Source of the DNA: an uncultured Oscillospiraceae bacterium | GTDB lineage: Bacteria > Bacillota > Clostridia > Oscillospirales > Oscillospiraceae | Direction: 5' to 3' | Assembly: GCA_947631845.1 (NCBI GenBank) | Contig: CANRMY010000015.1 | Span: 1-47,017 of the forward strand | Length of the DNA stretch: 47,017 nucleotides | Shown: piece after piece, positions 3,997 through 34,561 of the stretch | Layout of the letters: the number at the start of each line of letters is the position of its first letter | Numbering within the stretch: position 1 is the first letter of the stretch | Position numbers and translations under genes: made by a program | The notes under the pieces: generated by a model | Told to the model about the DNA's origin: nothing | Databases searched by the model: none | Seen by the model: the letters and a program-made list of their open reading frames with translations, nothing else

Positions 3997-4073
3997 TGGT
4001 CCGAGTGACTGGATTCGAACCAGCGGCCTCTTGAACCCCATTCAAGCGCGATACCAAACTTCGCCACACCCGG
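3997..4073 (-). tRNA. tRNA-Pro (anticodon GGG)
   Basis: A full cloverleaf can be drawn on the minus strand: acceptor CCGGGTG paired with CACTCGG, a D-arm GCGA/TCGC, the anticodon arm CTTGA-ATGGGGT-TCAAG giving anticodon GGG, a T-arm with loop TTCGAAT, discriminator A, and an encoded CCA (3997-3999). It reads CCC proline codons. The gene is solitary. Its 3' end faces the prophage remnant, a common arrangement for tRNA-targeting phages, but no duplicated 3' end is visible. Confidence 0.95.
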
Positions 4074-33772: not shown

Positions 33773-33803
33773 GATCCTGTTTTCCACGAGGAGGATGAAC
33801 CTG

Positions 33804-34561
33804 TTGGTTTACAAGTTCAACGAAAAAGTGTCTGTAAAAGCATTGGCGGATTTGCGTGAATCTGTGGGTTGGAACAGGATGGAAAGAGAATATAATAACC
33901 CTTTGATGACGTCCTATTACCATATTGCGGTTTATGAAAATGAAAAACTGATTGGATATATTGATTGTGTATCAAACGGTGTAACAGATGCTTATAGCTG
34001 ACGGGAATCGAACCCGCGCCGCTCCACGCGGGCCCTTTCCGGCGCTTTTTGCCTTGTCGTCGTCGCCTTGCCGCGTCGTCGCGGAACCGGCTTAACCTCG
34101 GGCTCCAAGTATTCGCCCTCAGGCGCACGGTTCGCTCCTCCTTTCCCAATGCGATTTTGATCGCATTGGGGACCCGAGGCTTCCTCCTTCGCGGCAAAAA
34201 TCCCTCGAAAATTGCTCCGCGTGGAGTGCCTTGCAGTTTTCGGCGAGCTGATTTGCGTCAGGACGCGGAAAAAGCCACAGAGAATACTTGCGTATTGTCA
34301 AGGCTTTTGACAAAGTACTGGCGCAAATCAGCCGGCGAAAACCGGCGCGGGTTCGACTCCCGTCAGCTATATCAGGATTTAATGGTTTGTCCGGATCACC
34401 AGGGCAAAGGGATCGGTACAGACCTGATGGATAAAATGATTGAGTATCTGAAAGAAAAGCGTATCTACATGATTTCAGTGGTTTATGAAGAGCGCTTGAA
34501 GCCGTTTTATGAGCGATTTGGGTTTTATAATATGCTGTGCGGGCAAATGGAAACATATTAG
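33804..34561 (+). pseudogene. GNAT acetyltransferase gene split by an inserted element
   Basis: The first half (to 33996) reads VYKFNEKVSVKALADLRESV ... GYIDCVSNGVTDAY and the second half (from about 34368) reads YQDLMVCPDHQGKGIGTDLM ... ERFGFYNMLCGQMETY. Joined, they make a GNAT of about 130 residues with the acetyl-CoA motif Q-G-K-G-I-G. The first half stops at 34001, in the inserted element. Removing exactly 33997-34367 (371 bases) restores one frame. Removing one TATA copy as well does not, so the gene may also carry a small indel. TTG 33804 is nine bases after GAGGAGG; the ATG 33795 is too close to it. The lower GC of these halves suggests transfer from elsewhere. It is not expected to make an active enzyme. 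Confidence 0.8.
33993..34371. mobile_element. Structured non-coding element with T-arm-like inverted termini
   Basis: A 379-base segment bounded by 29-base inverted repeats (33993-34021 and 34343-34371, one mismatch). Each end contains a tRNA T-arm-like hairpin (GCGGG, TTCGA(C/T)T, CCCGT) joined to an acceptor-like CAGCTAT. Inside, nested pairings are visible: CTCCACGCGG/CCGCGTGGAG (34022, 34217), TTTTTGCC/GGCAAAAA (34046, 34193), CCTCGGG/CCCGAGG (34097, about 34172) and hairpin CCCAATGCGAT/ATCGCATTGGG (34145-34170). A second domain pairs 34247-34261 with 34319-34333 around smaller hairpins. No open reading frame looks coding. It sits inside an acetyltransferase gene, flanked by TATA on both sides. 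It may be a miniature transposable element or a mobile structured RNA. Confidence 0.75.

Follow-up and report, generated by a model that had tools for sequence, protein, structure and literature searches.

The segment that splits a GNAT gene in the window (the whole 47,017-nucleotide stretch of DNA that was analysed) probably belongs to a family of palindromic, non-autonomous DNA elements of the MITE type that insert at TA and are found across many Clostridia. The element has the features of a MITE: it is short, non-coding, present in multiple copies and bounded by terminal inverted repeats, with a target-site duplication of TA that is exact at one locus (L041) and near-exact at two others (L035 and L037). 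It is read as a TA-terminated kind of bacterial MITE and not as a tRNA-like retro-element.

In the symmetric register the element occupies positions 33996-34368, comprising 373 bp of non-coding DNA flanked by TA, or 33995-34369 if the TA is counted as flank on both sides. The inverted arms (33993-34033 and 34331-34371) are 41 nt long and 85% complementary, and their outermost 29 nt form the terminal stem P1 (Table 1). The fold of either strand is better than those of 100 shuffled sequences (z of -11.7 and -11.2, with 0 of 100 shuffles as good), in agreement with the preliminary description of a structured segment with inverted 29-nt ends. The statement in that description that the segment contains no coding frame is fair, as the ORFs inside the element come from a mechanical listing. 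Searches of the window for tRNA and tmRNA genes found none at the element, and no Rfam family was matched at the gathering score on the element when the window or the element itself was scanned. An ordinary tRNA-Pro (GGG) gene lies at 3997-4073 of the window on the minus strand.

The two flanks are indeed the halves of a single GNAT gene, as had been proposed: an uninterrupted homologue is present in six genomes of the same genus, with 91-98% protein identity. At the insertion site the empty relatives have 6 nt and the window has 380 nt, giving a net insertion of 374 bp by a by-eye count. This is 1 nt short of the 373 bp of the element plus a 2-bp duplication, and the junction of the window copy is therefore not clean. 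The comparison with intact relatives that had been suggested earlier thus defines the insertion, with a target duplication that is inexact at the window site.

Table 1. Features of the window element and its flanks, and of two 159-bp elements at other loci
Feature	Position	Strand	Evidence
5' part of the interrupted GNAT gene	33795..33992	+	ORF 33795-34001; six intact homologues in the genus
Element, 373 bp in the symmetric register	33996..34368	+	Inverted arms, empty sites, other copies
Left junction TATA, made up of the target TA and the opening bases of the element; ambiguous register	33993..33996	.	Empty sites, other copies
P1 left strand, terminal stem, 29 nt	33993..34021	+	Inverted arms, fold, alignment
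P2, left arm, broken here by the extra module; in other lineages sometimes an inverted homologue of the right arm	34022..34226	+	
Extra module of ~105 bp at the tip of P2; not in the 277-bp base form	34072..34176	+	
P3, tiny junction hairpin TGC-NNN-GCA, nearly invariant	34227..34235	+	
P4, right arm (GTTTT...AAAAC); its internal loops are conserved	34236..34342	+	R1 match
P1 right strand, terminal stem; reads as T-arm plus acceptor strand, CGCGGGTTCGACTCCCGTCAGCTATA	34343..34371	+	
3' part of the interrupted GNAT gene	34374..34561	+	ORF, six intact homologues
159-bp elements with the P4 arm	L066:1760-1918, L071:2047-2205		Near IS630-like transposase fragments; one directly adjoining

Copies and empty sites

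The home genome, a draft of 119 contigs, gives 65 BLAST matches to the element. The base form is about 277 bp in length, to which the window copy adds a module of about 105 bp in the left arm. Besides the window copy, four copies that are 90-98% identical to it have this module-bearing form (C61, C5, C36 and C53), and the presence of the same internal module in five copies at different places indicates that the form has moved. Most of the module (34073-34150) has further occurrences in the home genome, about 28 by a count from the match list. Its recurrence in other contexts suggests a history in which the window copy began as the 277-bp form, gained another repeat and then moved again. Elsewhere in the home genome the module (about 78-105 bp) often sits within a different, larger repeat. 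Minimal palindromes of about 40-60 bp are also present.

Empty sites in sister genomes show the duplication of TA letter for letter at L041, a home-genome copy. At L035 the TA is duplicated relative to the empty site and the left end is one base shorter, and at L037 the duplication is accompanied by one substitution. A two-base duplication fits at L036 and L038, given one substitution each. For L033, L047 and the window copy, the deviation from a clean duplication is at least one base. As the ends read TATA, the register of further copies is ambiguous. One site was found in three states, with a full copy in the home genome (L038), a collapsed remnant in two relatives (L131 and L132) and an empty site in a third (L133). 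The two remnants, from genomes G017 and G023, are short collapsed palindromes, as if from hairpin slippage. The multiple copies, the differing occupancy among related genomes and the empty state of the window site in relatives are in line with the earlier claim that the segment moved or arrived recently. The contrary case of a single-copy sequence with neither homologues nor covariation fails.

Fold, length and ends of the family

Of 30 loci that were fetched, 24 were aligned; L158, L160, L164, L166, L167 and L168 were left out as core-only, divergent, chance or tRNA sequences. Compensatory double changes are seen at 67 of the 86 consensus base pairs in the alignment. The covariation score is 0.530, compared with 0.176 for shuffled alignments (0 of 500 as high) and 0.07-0.09 when the partners were slid. 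In the resulting design, stem P1 closes a junction of the arms P2 and P4 and the nearly invariant tiny hairpin P3. A covariance model of the right arm P4 (R1) matches the window at 34224-34346 (126.8 bits, E-value of 1.3e-28). By R1 score P2 is an inverted P4 in 15 of 94 loci, and no separate inverted match is listed in the other 79; on the evidence of the 15 loci, the element may originally have consisted of two inverted homologous arms. An end repeat scoring at least 12 is present in 76 of the 94 R1 loci, the rest including contig-end truncations. The elements of these 76 loci and 15 copies from earlier loci make up a set of 91 elements. A larger set of 126 copies (133 before the removal of duplicates) adds copies from the genome collection, where, of 49, those near an edge or with no end repeat were dropped. 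The copy samples are weighted towards genomes rich in copies.

The length is 270-289 bp in 101 of the 126 copies. The background frequency of TA is 0.059 per position, yet 68 of 85 copies have one 24-26 nt past the invariant AAACC. This TA is mirrored at both ends in only 59 of 91 copies, and the lineage with ends reading GACTGAT or GGCTGAT is without a clear TA. When ORFs of at least 100 aa entering the terminal TA codon were counted in the 91 copies, 24 were in its frame, compared with 10 and nine in the other frames, which is suggestive of insertion in stop codons being tolerated or preferred. The outermost sequence is variable: when 119 copies are placed in a fixed register, their outer 12-mers comprise 77 different sequences and have a mean pairwise identity of 0.48, whereas the value for a 12-mer inside P4 is 0.71. 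Despite this variety, complementarity between the two ends of the same copy is 95% (119 copies). The ends differ even within a single genome (L267 and L269 in G094) while the interior is conserved.

For a MITE-type element of this kind the enzyme is likely to be encoded elsewhere. Such a recombinase would bind the conserved arms, P4 and its counterpart P2, and not the terminal sequence, and would cut at the TA about 25 nt beyond the invariant AAACC. The complementarity of P1 would have one of two causes: the reaction may require the DNA to adopt a hairpin or cruciform, or the arms of the palindrome may correct each other in replication. A more far-reaching but less likely reading is that across the class mobility is set by the folded shape and the fixed arm-to-TA distance, and not by the terminal sequence, with an as yet unrecognised recombinase acting on ends that drift, even into exact copies of tRNA and tmRNA 3' ends, and stay mobile.

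The second of the two routes to a complementary P1 can also be taken as a full explanation, in which template switching copies mutations from arm to arm and there is no selection for the fold. Correction of a quasi-palindrome would account for a P1 that drifts in sequence yet stays 95% complementary, for mismatches that are few and nearly symmetric (see below) and for the collapsed mini-palindromes at L131 and L132 in relatives, which are a sign of strand slippage. It leaves the conserved bulges, internal loops, junction sequence and length unexplained, however, and on its own we consider it unlikely. Alongside the preferred reading of a TA-inserting MITE, palindrome correction may keep P1 complementary and so account for part of the covariation.

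DNA, RNA and the likeness to tRNA

The strand on which the structure is kept was addressed through neighbouring genes and mismatches. For 90 copies, the directions of the neighbouring ORFs, taken as the longest ORFs and not as annotated genes, are both with the element in 25 cases, divergent in 23, convergent in 22 and both against it in 20. A role as a 5' leader, considered for several copies that by eye lie just past a promoter, is ruled out by this lack of orientation preference. Mismatches in P1 comprise 144 G-T and 120 A-C among 3,024 cells (one-sided p of 0.08) and are thus nearly strand-symmetric, as expected if base pairing is maintained in the DNA itself or on both strands. For P4 there are 18 G-U versus four A-C on pairs predicted from both strands in 15 sequences, nine versus three in all 24 and 17 versus eight in the 126-copy set, counts that are to be read with the fold prediction itself favouring G-U on the folded strand. 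An RNA-like strand asymmetry, which a function purely as DNA would not predict, is therefore suggested for P4 only, and its lean towards G-U leads us to keep an RNA role for this arm as a possibility.

A mobile structured RNA, in which the P1-P4 fold of a transcript is selected, for example for RNA processing, for regulation or as an RNA transposition intermediate, would be in keeping with the very strong covariation, the invariant junction core and the one-strand excess of G-U in P4. It fits poorly with the unbiased ORF orientation, with the nearly symmetric mismatches of P1 and with a P2 that is an inverted P4 in 15 of 94 loci. No Rfam family reaches the gathering score, the weak matches being unconvincing, and overall we regard this reading as quite improbable. 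The RNA intermediate envisaged in the preliminary description is disfavoured by the same orientation counts and P1 mismatches.

The window copy carries the T-arm motif GGGTTCGAYTCCC at each of its two ends. A search with the 23-nt end, as AGSTGACGGGARTCGAACCCGCG, gave 12 exact matches among viral contigs, seven of which lie in called genes: two tRNA-Asp and one tmRNA called by ARAGORN and four tmRNAs called with Rfam. By eye, four other viral matches (L176, L177, L180 and L181) have upstream surroundings like those of the called genes and L182 looks tmRNA-like; an Rfam scan of L177 and L182 found no tmRNA at the gathering score. The end of the window copy is identical over 23 nt to tmRNA and tRNA-Asp 3' ends. 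Of the 126 copies of the family, 26 have the T-loop motif at both ends, 31 at one end and 69 at neither, and some lineages have unrelated ends. The likeness is therefore real but is not a shared mechanism, and the resemblance is lineage-specific. The ends made of a T-arm and an acceptor strand that were noticed earlier are thus present and equal to real tRNA and tmRNA 3' ends, but a T-arm as the working feature is not supported in a family with 69 copies in which neither end has the motif. In the MITE-type reading the tRNA- and tmRNA-like ends of the window lineage would be one among many end sequences used, and not the mechanism.

No single tRNA or tmRNA stands out as a source. An origin from the host tmRNA is not favoured: by eye, three of about 25 positions separate the 3' end of the host ssrA from the related end of AGGTGAC type, and one host tRNA 3' end differs at two of 19 positions. 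When weak matches were allowed, the element gave a sub-threshold tmRNA match at 34231-34374 (21.8 bits, compared with a gathering score of 47), which derives from the T-arm-like end plus the right arm; similar sub-threshold scores with the tmRNA model occur at many other tRNA-sized places. This match and the 23-nt identity are the points in favour of a SINE-like element that arose from a tmRNA or tRNA 3' end and recruits tRNA-handling enzymes. We judge such an element very improbable given the commonness of similar scores, the restriction of a T-loop motif at both ends to 26 of the 126 copies, the lack of a CCA and the unbiased ORF orientation. These last three observations likewise tell against the earlier proposal that T-arm ends recruit tRNA-handling enzymes. 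The companion proposal, that the T-arm is a site for a transposase encoded elsewhere, fares better in one part, as an enzyme encoded elsewhere is likely, but not in the other, as the T-arm is not kept across the family.

Candidate parents, distribution and known systems

The IS630-type DDE_3 domain (PF13358), the sole transposase family searched, has no match in the home genome draft and is found in four of 34 genomes of the genus. No autonomous copy or parent was seen among the matches to the TIR pattern in the genus or the loci examined, all from draft genomes; those pattern matches that lie as inverted pairs are 42-430 bp apart. Two long inverted R1 pairs (L318 and L338) were considered as an autonomous element and rejected, being separate short elements around other ORFs, and L319 and L287 gave no convincing outer repeat pair. 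Two 159-bp elements share the P4 arm but end in an unrelated, conventional 23-bp repeat (TACTAATATTCAATTAAAATAAG; Table 1). An ORF directly adjoining one of these elements (L066:1913-2365, minus strand) looks by eye like the C-terminal part of a tyrosine recombinase. The preliminary description had allowed for a known IS-derived miniature element; within the searches made, the parent IS was not found.

A preference for TA is a property of IS630/Tc1-mariner elements and of the IS427 group of IS5. The element could thus be an ordinary MITE of an undetected IS of one of these groups, with terminal repeats that are read by sequence and a structure and covariation that are by-products. The TA duplication, the MITE size, the inverted ends and the mostly intergenic sites would all follow, IS copies are easily lost from draft genomes, and one of the two 159-bp elements that combine the P4 arm with TACTAATATTCAATTAAAATAAG ends directly adjoins an IS630-like transposase fragment. 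Against this stand the scarcity of PF13358 (no home-genome matches and four of 34 genus genomes) and the ends that differ within one genome (L267 and L269 in G094) around a conserved interior. We consider the ordinary MITE somewhat unlikely. It gains some weight, and the preferred reading loses a little, from the fact that only one of the three TA duplications is exact to the letter and that the transposase search covered a single family.

The family is widespread. The 277-bp form has full-length relatives, about 68-77% identical, in other families of the order and matched 26 of 394 genomes of the order, some of these resting on tRNA or very short matches. R1, the E-values of which are rough, matches 137 of 394 genomes of the order and 68 of 168 genera at an E-value of 0.01, where weak matches may be false, and 25 of the order genomes each have at least nine candidates. 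At an E-value of 1e-5 it matches 79 of 391 genomes of the class and 50 of 222 genera. When named genomes were scanned for an exact pattern, 72 stretches matched, all of them titled as Clostridia-type or unspecified Bacillota and many originating in assemblies from animal gut or rumen; the scan does not establish absence outside these groups. R1 gave no match in 12 viral loci (202 kb scanned, those loci included) and blastn gave no match to the element in a phage collection. Among plasmid records there is one copy, in Vescimonas fastidiosa MM35 (an isolate from a human source), which lies between two annotated genes and is itself unannotated. Placement is mostly intergenic. At L318:2742-3003, in a gut Clostridia assembly, another copy appears to split a gene, by eye that of an ABC transporter. 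At eight other loci with R1 copies only tRNAs reach the Rfam gathering score, and the family was not recognised in Rfam or in the open-licence PMC literature searched.

To our knowledge, most families of bacterial MITEs consist of short elements and occur within one genus or a few related families; where a mobiliser is proposed, as for RUP, the ends match those of a resident IS. The present family is a new, unusually wide and structurally conserved TA-terminated bacterial MITE: it spans many families of Clostridia, some genomes have at least nine copies, and structure and length are conserved more than the ends. With this priority of structure and length over end sequence, recognition by structure or by distance can be tested directly in a small mobile element. 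The family also accounts for tRNA- and tmRNA-like repeats in gut genomes that could be mistaken for RNA genes or integrase sites.

Several known systems are comparable. The RUP/IS630-Spn1 pair shares the TA target and the inverted ends (PMC3049150; PMC2229807), and RUP ends resemble those of a resident IS, whereas no such IS was found for the present family. The bcr1 repeat of the Bacillus cereus group has mobile-element characteristics and a common predicted fold, and is given as 147 and 167 bp (PMC2267715); the comparison with the present family is by description only. Correia/NEMIS, ERIC and RUP are described in PMC2229807 as TA-terminated bacterial MITEs of about 100-200 bp that are mostly A+T-rich. 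The present family resembles these small, non-coding, strongly folded elements in its TA-terminated inverted ends, its target duplication and its intergenic, sometimes intragenic, placement; it differs in its length of about 277 bp, its two arms, its class-wide occurrence and an interior that is conserved by covariation while the terminal sequence varies. Two inverted-repeat arms and a phylogenetically conserved structure are likewise seen in the CIR elements of Caulobacter and Brucella, but their arms are joined by a linker, unlike elements in which the 5' and 3' ends pair (PMC2229807), whereas the present element is closed by a stem of 24-29 bp and its P2 can be an inverted P4.
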